DNA from: Bacillota bacterium
Lineage (GTDB): Bacteria > Bacillota > SHA-98 > Ch115 > JABLXJ01
Reading direction: 5' to 3'
Length of the DNA stretch: 64,000 nt
Assembly (NCBI GenBank): GCA_013178125.1
Contig: JABLXJ010000004.1
Coordinates: forward strand, 62,001-126,000
Shown: positions 10,353 to 62,298 of the stretch, piece by piece
How the letters are laid out: each line of letters opens with the position of its first letter
Numbering within the stretch: the stretch's first letter is position 1
The notes under the pieces: model-generated
What the model saw: the letters and a program-made list of their open reading frames with translations, nothing else
Databases searched by the model: none
Told to the model about the DNA's origin: nothing
Made by a program: the position numbers and the translations under genes

Positions 10353-10400
10353 GTTTCTTTCAGAGATCGAAGAGGATCCGCAGAAAGGGAGGGAATGTTC

Positions 10401-11852
10401 ATGGCAGTGCGTGAGACGGCACACGCCGCGAGGGTCGCGGATTTCATCGATGACGGCAAGATATGGGATACGCTCGAGAGGGCGAAGGCAGCCCCGCGGG
10501 AAAGGGCAATCGATATCATCGCGAAGGCGCGGGAGGCGAAGGGCTTAGAGCCCGATGAGGTCGCCATCCTGCTTCACCAGGACGATGACGCGATCCTGGA
10601 GAAGATGTATGATGTAGCCCATGAGATCAAGGAGAGAATCTACGGGAAGAGGCTTGTTTTCTTCGCCCCGCTCTATTTCAGCAACTACTGCGTAAACAAT
10701 TGCCGGTATTGCGGCTACAGGCATAGCAACGATACCCCAAGACGGAAGCTCACCCTAGATGAGGTCAGGGAGCAAGTCAATATCCTCGAGGGCATGGGGC
10801 ACAAGAGATTAGCGCTCGAGTGCGGGGAGGACCCGGTGAATTGCCCCATGGACTATATCCTGGACGTGATCAGGGCGATCTACGATACCAGGGCCGGAAA
10901 TGGGAGCATCCGCCGCGTGAATGTGAACATCGCCGCCACTACTGTCGAAGACTACAAGCTGCTCAAGGCCGCCAAGATAGGGACATATGTGCTGTTTCAG
11001 GAGACATATCACCGTGCTACCTACGCCGAGGTGCACCCTTCGGGGCCGAAGCGGGATTACGACTGGCACACCACCGCCATGGACCGGGCGATGGAGGGCG
11101 GCATCGATGATGTAGGGATAGGCGCCCTCTTTGGACTCTATGATTACAAGTTCGAGGTCATGGGGCTCATCTATCACGCCCTGCACCTGGACAGGGAATT
11201 CGGGGTTGGACCCCATACTATATCCGTCCCTCGCCTGAGGCCCGCAGCAGGAATTTCTCTGGAATCCTTCCCCTACCTCGTGGGTGACCGTGACTTTAAG
11301 AAGCTGGTGGCTATTATCAGGCTCGCCGTGCCCTATACGGGCATGATCCTGTCGACGCGCGAACGCCCAGGCTTCCGCGATGAAGTCATACGTGTCGGCA
11401 TATCCCAGATCAGCGCGGGCTCGTGCACGGGCGTGGGCGGCTACAGGGAGGAGGTGGAGGGGGTTGAGCCCCACGACCACCAGTACCAGGACCGAGACAA
11501 CGACACGGCCCAGTTCGAGGTCGAGGATAAGCGAAGCCCCGAGGAGATAATTAGGAACCTGTGTCGTTCAGGGTACATCCCCAGTTACTGCACGGCGTGC
11601 TATCGCCAGGGGCGGACAGGCGACCGCTTCATGGCTCTGGCCAAGACCGGGCGCATTCATAATATCTGCCAGCCCAACGCCATCATGACTTTTAAGGAGT
11701 ATCTCATGGACTACGCCTCGCCCGAGACGAGGAGGCTTGGCGAGGAGACCATACAGGCGCATCTCGAGCTGGTAGAAAACCCATCCATCCGCCGTGAGAC
11801 GGAGAGCAGGCTCCGGAGAATTGAGGCGGGTGAGCGAGACCTCTATTTCTGA
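10401..11852 (+). CDS. hydG: [FeFe]-hydrogenase maturase HydG (tyrosine lyase, radical SAM)
   Basis: Cleaves tyrosine to supply the CO and CN ligands of the H cluster. It has the radical SAM motif Cys97, Cys101, Cys104 (CVNNCRYC) and, in its last quarter, CTAC followed after about 22 residues by another Cys, the ligands of the second iron-sulfur cluster that separates HydG from the thiamine enzyme ThiH. Length 483 residues is normal. ATG 10401 is chosen over 10395 because GGGAGGG is 7-8 nt upstream of the former. HydF and hydrogenase structural genes are not in the window. Confidence 0.94.
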   Translation: MAVRETAHAARVADFIDDGKIWDTLERAKAAPRERAIDIIAKAREAKGLEPDEVAILLHQDDDAILEKMYDVAHEIKERIYGKRLVFFAPLYFSNYCVNNCRYCGYRHSNDTPRRKLTLDEVREQVNILEGMGHKRLALECGEDPVNCPMDYILDVIRAIYDTRAGNGSIRRVNVNIAATTVEDYKLLKAAKIGTYVLFQETYHRATYAEVHPSGPKRDYDWHTTAMDRAMEGGIDDVGIGALFGLYDYKFEVMGLIYHALHLDREFGVGPHTISVPRLRPAAGISLESFPYLVGDRDFKKLVAIIRLAVPYTGMILSTRERPGFRDEVIRVGISQISAGSCTGVGGYREEVEGVEPHDHQYQDRDNDTAQFEVEDKRSPEEIIRNLCRSGYIPSYCTACYRQGRTGDRFMALAKTGRIHNICQPNAIMTFKEYLMDYASPETRRLGEETIQAHLELVENPSIRRETESRLRRIEAGERDLYF

Positions 11853-11894
11853 TCTGCGGGAGACCTCTACATGTCAAAGACTACCGCCACTTTT

Positions 11895-12014
11895 CCAGGA
11901 CTTACGGTGTTGCGCTCCGGGGACGGCGCGCTTGCGGCGCGCCTCCGTTGAAATTTGGCGCGGGGGCCCTGCCAAATTTCAAAGGCCCCGTCGCGCAAAC
12001 ACCGTAAGTCCTGG
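11895..12014. repeat. nested palindromic repeat, copy 1
   Basis: The outer arms (11895-11910 and 11999-12014) are a perfect 16-bp inverted repeat beginning CCAGGACTTACGGTGT. Inside are two smaller hairpins: GGCGCGC / GCGCGCC, and a 12-bp inverted repeat TTGAAATTTGGC / GCCAAATTTCAA. The core equals the reverse complement of copy 3 with only about three differences, while the right flank (12015-12060) matches the right flank of copy 3 in direct orientation. It lies 42 nt after the hydG stop. Confidence 0.9.
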
Positions 12015-12150
12015 GACGTGCTGGTAAACTGGCACAAACTAAGGAACCTGCACTTGGCATCAATGGCACGCGTTACCCGGGCAGGCAGGCTGCCAGGCTG
12101 CCGGGAGGCAGGCAGTAGGCATTTGCCCAGTATTTTGCAGCTTCGCTGGA

Positions 12151-12179
12151 TTGACAAGCCATCCCGGCCCCTATATAAT
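12151..12179 (+). promoter_or_regulatory. consensus SigA promoter of secD-secF
   Basis: TTGACA, exactly 17 nt, TATAAT: a perfect match to the vegetative consensus. The start would be near 12186, about 34 nt upstream of the secD start codon. This also rules out translation from the TTG at 12151. Confidence 0.85.
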
Positions 12180-12219
12180 GGGATTGTGCGAATTTTGGGG
12201 GAAAAGGGGGAACCGGCTT

Positions 12220-13413
12220 GTGAGACCAGGGATGTTATGGAAAATCCTGGGCGTTATCGTCATTGTAGCAATCTGCGCCGGGGTCATCTACAAACTACCC
12301 ATGAACCTGGGCCTTGACCTCAAGGGCGGCACGCGCCTCGTGCTCGAGGCTCAGGATACCTCTACCGTGAAGGTTGACGAGGACGCGGTGCAGCGGGCCA
12401 AGGAGGTCATCCAGAGGAGGGTCGACCAGCTTGGCGTGGCTGAGCCCGTGATCTATAGACAGGGGGAGAGACGAATCGTAGTTGAACTCGCTGGCGTCAA
12501 GGACCCTCAGAGGGCCAAGGAGATCATCGGCAAGACGGCCATGCTGGAGTTCAAGGACGAGAGCGGCAACATCATTATGACTGGGGATGATCTCAAGAAC
12601 GCCACCGCGGGATACGACGAATACGGGCGGCCTGCGGTTCACTTCGAGCTCACTCCCGCAGGCGGCAAGAAATTTGAAAAGGCGACCCGGGAGAATCTCG
12701 GGCGGCAGATATCCATCATCCTGGACAACCAGGTGTTGAGCAGCCCTGTGGTCCAGGCCGTGATCAAGGATAAAGGCATAATTCAGGGCATGCGAAGCAT
12801 GGAGGAGACCAAGGATCTCTCGATGATGCTTCGAGCGGGAGCCTTGCCGGTCCCCATGAAGATACTCCATAGCGAGACCCTGGAGCCGATCCTTGGACGG
12901 GAGTCGATAAACCAGAGCGCGGTCGCTGCGACAATAGGAATCGCACTTGTATTGCTTTTTATGCTGGGTATGTACAGGTTGCCGGGCATAATGGCCGACG
13001 TGGCCCTGGCTGTCTATGCATTCATAGTCTTCGCCGCCATGGCGGCGCTGCATGCGACCCTGACGTTGCCGGGCATAGCCGGCATGATCCTCTCGGTCGG
13101 CATGGCGGTCGACGCCAACGTAATCATTTTTGAGAGGATCAAGGAGGAACTCAGGGGGGGCAAGAGGCTGCGGGCGGCCATCGAGGCAGGGTTTACGCGG
13201 GCCTTTACGTGCATCCTCGATTCGAATCTGACCACCCTGATAACCGCCGGCGTGCTGTATATTTACGGCACAGGTCCCGTCAAGGGGTTTGCCGTAACCC
13301 TGACGCTTGGAATCCTGGCGAGCATGTTCACGGCGATCGTGGTGACTCGCATAATAATGACGGCGATAGTGGATCGCAATCCGGAGCGGTATGCCCGCTA
13401 CTTCGGGGCCTAA
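12220..13413 (+). CDS. secD: protein translocase subunit SecD
   Basis: Membrane subunit using proton motive force to complete Sec export. It has an N-terminal helix, the LGLDLKGGTRLVLE signature, a periplasmic-type P1 domain and a C-terminal bundle of about five helices with the RND-type segment MAVDANVIIFERIKEEL. GTG 12220 is preferred: GGGGG lies 9 nt upstream and the promoter sits between 12151 and 12179. The 397-residue length fits the short clostridial type. It is followed directly by secF. Confidence 0.94.
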   Translation: MRPGMLWKILGVIVIVAICAGVIYKLPMNLGLDLKGGTRLVLEAQDTSTVKVDEDAVQRAKEVIQRRVDQLGVAEPVIYRQGERRIVVELAGVKDPQRAKEIIGKTAMLEFKDESGNIIMTGDDLKNATAGYDEYGRPAVHFELTPAGGKKFEKATRENLGRQISIILDNQVLSSPVVQAVIKDKGIIQGMRSMEETKDLSMMLRAGALPVPMKILHSETLEPILGRESINQSAVAATIGIALVLLFMLGMYRLPGIMADVALAVYAFIVFAAMAALHATLTLPGIAGMILSVGMAVDANVIIFERIKEELRGGKRLRAAIEAGFTRAFTCILDSNLTTLITAGVLYIYGTGPVKGFAVTLTLGILASMFTAIVVTRIIMTAIVDRNPERYARYFGA

Positions 13414-27492: not shown

Positions 27493-27672
27493 GAAAATCG
27501 AAAAAGATATGGTTGACTCCGGACCCTGCTGTGTGCGAGTCGGAGCTGACTGTTTTGTTCCAACACCAACACATAGGGAGCCCGGACTCTGGTTGTGGCA
27601 TGTATGCCACCTTGGAGTGGACACATAAAGCTTCCAGGAGGGCACCCACCTGCAGGGCGCAGGGGATTTAAA
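27493..27672 (+). ncRNA. ssrS: 6S RNA (SsrS-like), candidate
   Basis: About 180 nt behind a strong promoter and without a credible reading frame. The 5' part has CCCTGCTGTGTGC and the 3' part has GGGCACCCACCTGCAGGG; the CCCTGC and GCAGGG ends can pair to close a long imperfect hairpin, as 6S RNA requires. The location between aspS and the tcdA/yrvM gene is the place known for the Bacillus subtilis 6S-1 RNA. 6S RNA binds the vegetative RNA polymerase holoenzyme and moderates transcription in stationary phase. The ends are estimates; no clear T-rich terminator follows. Confidence 0.72.
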
Positions 27673-27721
27673 TGGTCAGCACAAACGGCACGGCGGGGTC
27701 CTCTGTGTTTTGCAAATAGAT

Positions 27722-39189: not shown

Positions 39190-39546
39190 ATGCCGGTAGA
39201 GGATGATATCGTAACGCTGGTTTATGACGATGGAGAGGAAGAGGACTTTTCCGTAGTTGATGTCGTCGAGGTGAACGGGAACCGGTACGCCATTTTGATC
39301 CCTGAGAATGTCGATGCTGAGGCCGATACTGATGAGGAGGAGTATGAGGAGTATGTATTCAGGGTTGAGGAAGGCGAGGACGGGGAGGAGATCCTCGTCG
39401 ACATCGATGATGACGAGTACGAGCAGGTGATGGAAGCCCTCGACGAGCTTTACGAGGATGAGGATGAGGATGAAGAGGGCGATGACGATTATGATGATGA
39501 TGAAGATGAGGATGAAGACGACTACGAGGACGAAGACGAACGCTAG
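39190..39546 (+). CDS. DUF1292 protein (YrzB family) with long acidic tail
   Basis: The N-terminal 80 residues match DUF1292 (DIVTLVYDDGEEEDFSVVDVV, YAILIP, YVFRVEEGEDGEEILVDIDDDEY). The last 35 are nearly all Asp, Glu and Tyr and come from GATGAGGAT-type repeats, longer than usual for the family. ATG 39190 has GAGGTGA upstream. Function unknown; fixed partner of ireB and ruvX across Bacillota. mltG starts 7 nt after the stop. Confidence 0.9.
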   Translation: MPVEDDIVTLVYDDGEEEDFSVVDVVEVNGNRYAILIPENVDAEADTDEEEYEEYVFRVEEGEDGEEILVDIDDDEYEQVMEALDELYEDEDEDEEGDDDYDDDEDEDEDDYEDEDER

Positions 39547-60169: not shown

Positions 60170-61000
60170 ATGCGCGCTGACTTCGTCATGTTTATACTCT
60201 CCTTTCTGGCCTGTTCAGCCTCTCTCCCCCTGGTGATCAACATGATGGAGCGAGCGGGGAATACGAGGTTGAACTACGAGGGCAGGCAGATCCCGACATC
60301 CCTCGGGCTTATCTTCATCCTGATCCTGGTGCCTGCCGCCTTCGTGGCGGTCGAGATGGGCTTCATGACGCTCGATGACGCGCTTCCTCCTCTTTTCCTT
60401 TTGTGCGCCGTAGGCATGGCTGGCTTGCTGGATGATCTCCTCGGCCAGGGTGATATGAAGGCAAAGGGCTTTAAGGGTCACCTCGGTGCGCTCCTGTTCG
60501 AGGGACGCCTCTCCACGGGGGCGCTGAAGGCTATTTTTACAGGGTTTTCAGCCTTGCTCCTGGCCATGATCATCGAGCGCACGCTTGCCGGCGTTGTATT
60601 GAGCGCCCTTATAATCGCCCTTGCGACAAACCTCATCAACCTGCTCGACCTGAGGCCCGGCCGCGCCGCCAAGGCATACCTCGCCGTGGTGATCCTGTTA
60701 TCACTGGCATGGGGGGCGCGCTGCTTTGACGGCCCACTCTTCTACCTCGTGCCGCTTACCGGCGCAGTCCTCGCATATATACGGACGGACCTCCGCGCGA
60801 GAGGGATGATGGGGGACACTGGCTCGAACATCCTGGGCGGGGCTCTGGGCTATGGGCTGGCCGCTGGGACCGAGGGCGCAGTCAGAGCCGGGGTCCTGGT
60901 GATTCTCCTGCTCATCCAGGCGTACGCTGAAAGGTGGTCGATAAGCCGGGCTATAGAGAATAATCGTTTGCTCAGGTTTTTGGACAATCTCGGGCGCTGA
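60170..61000 (+). CDS. MraY/WecA-like glycosyl-1-phosphate transferase (GT4), divergent
   Basis: Polytopic protein of 276 residues, about eight helices. It keeps the polyprenyl-phosphate transferase marks: LLDDLLGQ (the DD pair), NLINLLDLRPGRA and MGDTGSNILGG. It is shorter than MraY (about 320) and is not in a mur cluster, so it may load a non-peptidoglycan sugar onto undecaprenyl phosphate. Together with the GT2 it suggests a lipid-linked product. Start ATG 60170; the ribosome site GGGGCGAGGA is close. A nested palindrome follows 47 nt after its stop. Confidence 0.82.
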   Translation: MRADFVMFILSFLACSASLPLVINMMERAGNTRLNYEGRQIPTSLGLIFILILVPAAFVAVEMGFMTLDDALPPLFLLCAVGMAGLLDDLLGQGDMKAKGFKGHLGALLFEGRLSTGALKAIFTGFSALLLAMIIERTLAGVVLSALIIALATNLINLLDLRPGRAAKAYLAVVILLSLAWGARCFDGPLFYLVPLTGAVLAYIRTDLRARGMMGDTGSNILGGALGYGLAAGTEGAVRAGVLVILLLIQAYAERWSISRAIENNRLLRFLDNLGR

Positions 61001-61047
61001 GTGCGACCGCGAAGCTAAGTGTGAGTTCAAGAATTATCGCCGTTTTT

Positions 61048-61169
61048 CCAGGGGTTGCCGGTGCTTGCGTGACGGGGCCTTTGAAATTTGGCAATGCCCT
61101 CGCGCCAAATTTCAACGGAGGCGCGCCGCAAGCGCGCCGTCCCCGGAACGCAACACCGGCAACCCCTAT
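61048..61169. repeat. nested palindromic repeat, copy 2
   Basis: Arms AGGGGTTGCCGGTG (61050-61063) and CACCGGCAACCCCT (61154-61167) are a perfect 14-bp inverted repeat. The core matches copy 3 in direct orientation (TTTGAAATTTGGCAA, CGCCAAATTTCAACGG, GGCGCGCCGCAAGCGCGCC). The outer arms differ from copies 1 and 3 in both halves in a complementary way. The left flank (about 61013-61047) matches that of copy 3; the right flank does not. Confidence 0.9.
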
Positions 61170-61211
61170 TTAGATAATTTGGATAATCTTCAATGGTTGG
61201 AAGGGATATAC

Positions 61212-62078
61212 GTGAAGTTTGGCGTGCATGTTGCCATAGCCGGGGGGTTCGCCGGAGCGATCGATCGAGCCCAGAAGCTGCATTGCGATACAATACAGAT
61301 GTTTTCGAGGAGCCCAAGGAGCCTGAGGGCTCGCCCTCTCAATGAGGATGAGGCCGGGGATTTTCGCAACAGGGCCAGGTTGTCAGGCATATCCCCAATT
61401 GTGGTGCACATCCCTTATCTCATCAACCTTGCCTCGCCCAAGGAACAGACTTACGCGGTTTCCATAGCCGCCCTGCGGGAGGATATCATACGCGCCTGCG
61501 AGCTTGGCGCCGATTACCTTATTATACACCCCGGGAGCCATGTCGGCTCGGGGATCGAGGCCGGCACGGAGAGGATTGCCCGGGCCATAAACACGGTGTT
61601 CAAGGACAGGGAATGCCGCGACCGGAGCCAGGAGAGCGGCTTGAAGTTCCTCCTCGAGACGGTCTCAGGGGCCGGGACCGAGATCGGTTATACCTTTGAA
61701 CAGCTCGAGGGCATTATAGAACAGCTCGAGGGCGCAGGGGATATTGGTGTTTGCTTCGATACGTGTCATGTTTTTGCTGCAGGCTATGACATCCGGACGC
61801 CTGGTGGTTTGGATGGAGCCCTCGAGGATTTTGACCGGGTGCTTGGCCTCGGGCGGTTGAGGCTGGTTCACGCGAATGATTCCGTGGGGGAGCTGGGGTC
61901 GAGGAAGGACAGGCATGCTCACATAGGGGAGGGGATGATCGGCGAGGAGGGGTTCCGCGTGATCCTTGGTGATGAGAGGCTGCGCGAGGTGCCATTCATC
62001 CTCGAGACGCCGAATGATGACCCCGGGGATGATGCTCGCAATCTGGCCAGGCTTCGCGAGCTGGCCGGTCTGCGATAG
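61212..62078 (+). CDS. nfo: deoxyribonuclease IV (AP endonuclease Nfo)
   Basis: Zinc-dependent endonuclease acting at abasic sites. Reads FGVHVAIAGGFAGAIDRA at the start, then DYLIIHPGSHVGSG, FLLETVSGAGTEIGYTFEQL, GVCFDTCHVFAAGYDI, LVHANDSVGELGSRKDRHAHIGEG and PFILETPNDD, the metal-binding set of the family. GTG 61212 has GGAAGGG 6 nt upstream. The frame runs open upstream to 61065 through the palindrome; this is a by-product of the repeat and not a real N-terminus. 288 residues, normal. Confidence 0.94.
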   Translation: MKFGVHVAIAGGFAGAIDRAQKLHCDTIQMFSRSPRSLRARPLNEDEAGDFRNRARLSGISPIVVHIPYLINLASPKEQTYAVSIAALREDIIRACELGADYLIIHPGSHVGSGIEAGTERIARAINTVFKDRECRDRSQESGLKFLLETVSGAGTEIGYTFEQLEGIIEQLEGAGDIGVCFDTCHVFAAGYDIRTPGGLDGALEDFDRVLGLGRLRLVHANDSVGELGSRKDRHAHIGEGMIGEEGFRVILGDERLREVPFILETPNDDPGDDARNLARLRELAGLR

Positions 62079-62119
62079 CACGATGGCTAAGTGTGAGTTC
62101 GAAAATTGCCGCCGCTTTT

Positions 62120-62239
62120 CCAGGACTTACGGTGTTTGCGCGACGGGGCCTTTGAAATTTGGCAAGGCCCTCGCGCCAAATTTCAACGGAGGCGCGCCGC
62201 AAGCGCGCCGTCCCCGGAGCGCAACACCATAAGTCCTGG
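62120..62239. repeat. nested palindromic repeat, copy 3
   Basis: Outer arms CCAGGACTTACGGTGT (62120-62135) and ACACCATAAGTCCTGG (62224-62239), with one mismatch. The core is the reverse complement of copy 1. It lies 41 nt after the nfo stop and 59 nt before the helicase start. The right flank to about 62285 matches that of copy 1 in direct orientation. Confidence 0.9.
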
Positions 62240-62298
62240 AACGTGCTGGTAAATTGGCACAAATTAAGGAACCTACACTTAGGAACGGAGGTCGCAGA

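Follow-up and report, generated by a model that had tools for sequence, protein, structure and literature searches.

The closest described system is RUP of Streptococcus pneumoniae, a repeat of 107 bp whose terminal inverted repeats are like those of IS630-Spn1 (PMC3049150). Like the repeat reported here RUP is short, non-coding and tightly folded, occurs in about 100 copies and has IS630-like terminal inverted repeats of the same host (PMC3049150), but the present repeat is of ~196 bp, has CTAG as target, often lands at stop codons, differs in sequence and host class and contains a T-shaped, flipping core conserved more strongly than the ends. The BOX elements of S. pneumoniae resemble it in that they provide the gene before them with its stop codon, in 36 cases (PMC3049150), but they are modular (boxA, boxB and boxC) with ISSpn2 as the proposed mobiliser, and no mechanism by way of CTAG or TA is given for their stops (PMC3049150). 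IS630/Tc1-mariner elements duplicate TA (PMC2170065). IS630 and ISY100, both of the Tc1/mariner family, share this duplication together with a DDE_3 transposase, and IS630 in addition favours CTAG as the context of that TA (Tenzen and Ohtsubo 1991, cited in the same paper). Both are autonomous, whereas the repeat described below carries no gene.

The window, a stretch of 64,000 nucleotides from an uncultured member of the Bacillota, contains three palindromes (11895-12014, 61048-61169 and 62120-62239), all found at the positions first given for them. From sequence comparison we put at roughly 0.85 the probability that they are the cores of a non-autonomous MITE of ~196 bp, apparently moved in trans by a transposase of the IS630/Tc1-mariner family, with the less firm addition that the core would be kept as DNA, by conversion. 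When folded the three palindromes were far more stable than shuffled sequences, with z values of -10.2, -9.7 and -8.8, and none of 200 shuffles was equally good. Gene calling placed the ends of the upstream stop codons at 11852, 61000 and 62078, with the palindromes starting 43, 48 and 42 bases further on, i.e. after gaps of 42, 47 and 41 nt, in agreement with the 41-47 nt of the initial annotation. Alignment of the window copies revealed that the homology reaches beyond the palindromes to ends of the form CTAAGTG...CACTTAG, so that the repeat units cover 11867-12057, 61015 to ~61173 and 62087-62282, and that the interior of the first copy is inverted relative to the second and third (98% inverted match over 122 nt). 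The features are, with the genes as obtained by gene calling:

10395..11852, plus strand: gene 5' of copy 1, radical SAM protein with BATS domain (hydG in the initial annotation)
11867..12057, plus strand: MITE copy 1 over its full extent, with the core inverted against the ends; the left end is degenerate (CTACATGTC) and the right one reads CACTTGG
11906..12004, minus strand: core of copy 1 (99 nt), made up of the lower stem and the two inner hairpins
60170..61000, plus strand: gene 5' of copy 2, glycosyl transferase family 4 (GT4)
61015..61173, plus strand: MITE copy 2; right end shortened to a remnant, CTATTTAG, right boundary approximate
61059..61157, plus strand: core of copy 2 (99 nt), with GGGGTTGCCGGTG as its stem allele
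61179..62078, plus strand: gene separating copy 2 from copy 3, of the AP endonuclease 2 family (nfo)
62087..62282, plus strand: MITE copy 3, complete, 196 nt
62087..62124, plus strand: left end of copy 3, consisting of C, the duplicated TA and AGTGTGAGTTC-N10-GCCGCTTTTCCAGG, homologous to IS630 element ends
62130..62228, plus strand: 99-nt core of copy 3
62245..62282, minus strand: right end of copy 3; C, TA, AGTGTAGGTTC-N10-GCCAATTTACCAGC

The unit is thus a short, non-coding element of 196 nt between terminal inverted repeats, C-TA-AGTGYRRGTTC, with CTAAGTGYRRGTTC ends. A search of its own genome (G000) with a 198-nt query, the unit plus one base on each side, gave 51 matches, partial ones included, and a search with a covariance model for core-bearing copies gave 25 in G000, 101 in G001, 134 in G004, 130 in G006, 126 in G014, 34 in G009 and at least 150 in G008. 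The same model found 1-11 copies in most genomes of another genus and just 4 in G005, in whose genus others reach at least 150, while at the same threshold it gave zero copies in G007, G002 and G003; weak remnants in G003 are visible by BLAST. The alignment behind the R1 model was imperfect in the second hairpin, and the model was therefore used for finding copies and excluded from the pairing statistics. The same core is present in other families of the class at ~80-87% identity, and among 249 genomes sampled from the phylum the matches are confined to this uncultured Bacillota class, the named copy-bearing relatives being uncultured Bacillota MAGs such as DUMQ01 (G001) and JASEJE01 (G008). 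No match to the element was found in the viral, phage and plasmid collections searched. Outside the phylum a single exact match to a 27-nt core pattern was seen in Corallococcus exercitus (L162, NZ_RAVW01000380), probably by chance or contamination. The family appears to be undescribed in the literature searched, and the kind of element is a known one.

Shorter elements with the same type of ends but with other cores or none were also seen (L073:2613-2736, L186:2131-2256, L161:4234-4329 and L059:3665-3739); such variants, among them core-less versions of 75 nt, occur in G000 as well as in G006 and other relatives, apparently as products of recombination between ends and cores. In the intergenic gaps that hold the window copies (11853-12231, 61001-61178 and 62079-62298) G001 also has copies after the same three genes, at different positions, and the orientation is opposite in the gap from GT4 to nfo; given a density of roughly one copy in 28 kb, this suggests either hot spots or rearranged ancestral copies. 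No clean empty orthologous site was found in the relatives for the three copies of the window.

When analysing the position of the copies relative to genes, a bias to gene 3' ends was evident, with 60 copies in tandem, 14 in convergent and 10 in divergent arrangement and 1 within a gene, and with a median distance of 27 nt to the stop as compared to 98 nt to the next start. A constant distance to the stop, from which the initial annotation had argued, was not borne out: the stem lies 35-50 nt past the stop in 17 of 60 same-direction intergenic copies, within a broad range of 20-1668 nt. The actual spike is at the element end, which itself is the stop codon. In 19 of 91 elements (gene calls in 81 stretches) bases 2-4 of the end supply the in-frame stop of the neighbouring gene (TAA in 15, TAG in 3 and TGA in 1), and the distances of the remaining elements range from 8 nt to over 1 kb, so that 41-47 nt is no rule. 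This spike suggested the arrangement C-TA-[AGTG...CACT]-TA-G, i.e. insertion into CTAG with the TA duplicated. Direct repeats adjoining CTAAG and CTTAG had been looked for and there were none, the duplication turning out to be the TA within CTAAG.

Orthologous sites without the element, retrieved from relatives by searching with the joined flanks, read CTAG. At L270 all five relatives are element-free and read ...AAGAACTAG..., at L275 three of four read ATCTAG without element, and at both L274 and L272 a single relative has CTAG; at several other sites the relatives have TGA or GTAG, the CTAG thus being lineage-specific or lost there. Insertion is thus shown to take place at C^TAG with duplication of TA, the signature of IS630/Tc1-mariner elements. 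The bias to gene 3' ends follows since every TAG stop with a C in front of it forms a CTAG, and the end of the protein is kept since the element begins with A, which together with the duplicated TA gives TAA. This provides a simple rule for repeats at gene ends, in which a CTAG-seeking transposase meets C-TAG stops and an element starting with A keeps the stop, and the option proposed earlier, that a mobile element targets these sites, is borne out as insertion into CTAG, often at stops. In the same stretches 15 unoccupied CTAGs are at stops and 216 are intergenic; relative to these remaining sites insertions at stops are over-represented (rough Fisher p 0.0004, with the CTAG background taken from stretches picked around elements and the gene calls being our own), which selection against other sites could explain as well as a target preference.

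To the initial remark that no encoded transposase is visible, which holds for the window, can be added that a related IS630 element is found elsewhere in the genome. Transposases with PF13358 are present in G000, G002 and G003. The one in G002, a genome of the same order, belongs to the IS630 family (NCBIfam 187 bits, Pfam DDE_3 and a weak match to Sleeping Beauty), and the upstream end of its element reads C-TAAGTAAGAGTTC-N10-GCCACTTTACCAGG, the element being cut by the contig end. The IS630-family element in G000 (L420:1408-2550, G000:C2:149737-150879) is 1.14 kb long, sits in CTAG and is nearly intact, its transposase frame being interrupted by a single in-frame stop; the element ends are C-TAAGTTAGTGTCC-N10-GCCACTTTGCCAGG on one side and ...AACTTAG on the other. 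The MITE end, TAAGTGTGAGTTC-N10-GCCACTTTTCCAGG, has the same spacing as both. In a gapless layout of 37 nt the MITE ends are identical to the IS630 ends of G000 and G002 at 24-26 of 37 positions (25 and 26 for the two MITE ends against the G002 end), while of 28,669 other 37-mers starting with TA in the surveyed DNA only two reach at least 22 identities. A transposase of IS630 type thus probably is or was the mobiliser. No intact autonomous partner element was found in G001, G006 and G008, each with 100 or more copies, and since these genomes are without the IS of G000 and G002 we do not conclude that this exact IS is the partner. Transposases with PF01609 (IS4/IS1634-type) were considered as mobiliser and set aside, as their ends do not match.

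The conserved part of a MITE is usually the transposase-binding ends. Here the interior is conserved instead, which calls for an explanation, and it is this invertible interior, better conserved than the ends, that is the variant feature of the family. Within G000 the identity is 94% in the core and 72% in the ends, and between families 79% and 52% (44% for shuffled sequence). Conservation changes abruptly at the core edge GGTG...CACC, a step to which flipped copies contribute in part. Among the 57 copies with resolvable orientation the core is flipped relative to the ends in 8. Of 155 copies, 140 carry matching stem alleles on the two arms and 15 mixed ones, and at a site common to G000 and G001 (L009/L056) both stem arms differ together although the two copies agree fully in the outer ends and almost fully in the core. 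Gene conversion at the DNA level would, we infer, best account for the flips, the joint change of the arms and the conservation of the core, though it is drawn from few orthologous pairs and the flips could alternatively be as old as the origin of the copies.

The proposed course of events would be that a transposase of IS630 type acts in trans on the MITE ends, and that insertion at C^TAG duplicates TA, C-TAG stops serving as targets. A cruciform or hairpin at the core would then provoke breaks or template switching, the damage being repaired from the opposite arm or from another copy, and such repair would convert both arms jointly, turn the core around and leave it less variable than the ends. 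More speculatively, and with the odds rather against it, the T-shaped core might be the selfish part, a DNA palindrome provoking its own copying through cruciform cutting or template switching and repair from another copy; if so, it would spread and stay uniform across differing transposon ends, flipping meanwhile. The flip/flop ends of parvovirus genomes are somewhat like this. The hundreds of palindromes, marked by stem alleles and orientation, offer a natural series for measuring palindrome-driven conversion and inversion in bacteria.

The main rival to conversion is a role of the core as DNA, such as binding of gyrase or a nucleoid protein or pairing of transposon ends, that purifying selection would keep for the host or for the element. 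It is the less likely of the two but has a real chance of being correct, since the core outconserves the ends at all distances, the step at its edge is sharp and the pairing is kept without strand bias. However, G005 is nearly without copies and G007 has none although both belong to the same class, versions without the core or with another core occur, and conversion among copies also yields conservation.

That the palindromes function in the transcript, as a host-beneficial terminator, mRNA stabiliser or attenuator after genes, as was first considered, is improbable. Their strong folding and the 3'-end bias would fit such an element, but the latter follows from CTAG stops together with counter-selection elsewhere, and the mismatched pairs in 178 aligned cores of four subfamilies comprise 156 G-U and 156 A-C, so that neither strand is favoured. 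Read in the sense of the upstream gene, G-U (55) does not exceed A-C (49) either (p 0.62), and the orientation of the core to the gene is random (34:27). Rfam gave no match to the element, whether at gathering threshold or with E values up to 1, and the copy number varies from 4 to at least 150 inside one genus; strand-specific pairing, a fixed orientation to transcription and a known Rfam family, as expected of a structured RNA or terminator, were all missing. Non-Watson-Crick pairs are nevertheless rarer than expected from independent variation of the arms (325 compared to 558 in the own subfamily, kinship among copies uncontrolled), which, as no strand is favoured, speaks for upkeep of the palindrome as DNA and suggests that the T-shaped core is maintained as DNA rather than RNA. 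A palindrome of REP/BIME type mobilised by a Y1 (RAYT) transposase is very improbable, for although REP and BIME are likewise extragenic palindromes of high copy number, Y1_Tnp (PF01797) is absent from 9 of 10 genomes of the group, the own included, and the terminal inverted repeats, the TA duplication at CTAG and the size of the 196-nt unit set the family apart, so that of the likeness to REP or MITE elements noted at first the MITE half is retained.

Two further observations were made in the window. A 6S RNA (RF00013, 94.3 bits) is located at 27520-27703 on the plus strand and is the only Rfam match in the window at gathering threshold. At 39442-39525 there is a run of GAT/GAG-rich repeats, which if read in frame would yield an acidic stretch rich in Asp and Glu.
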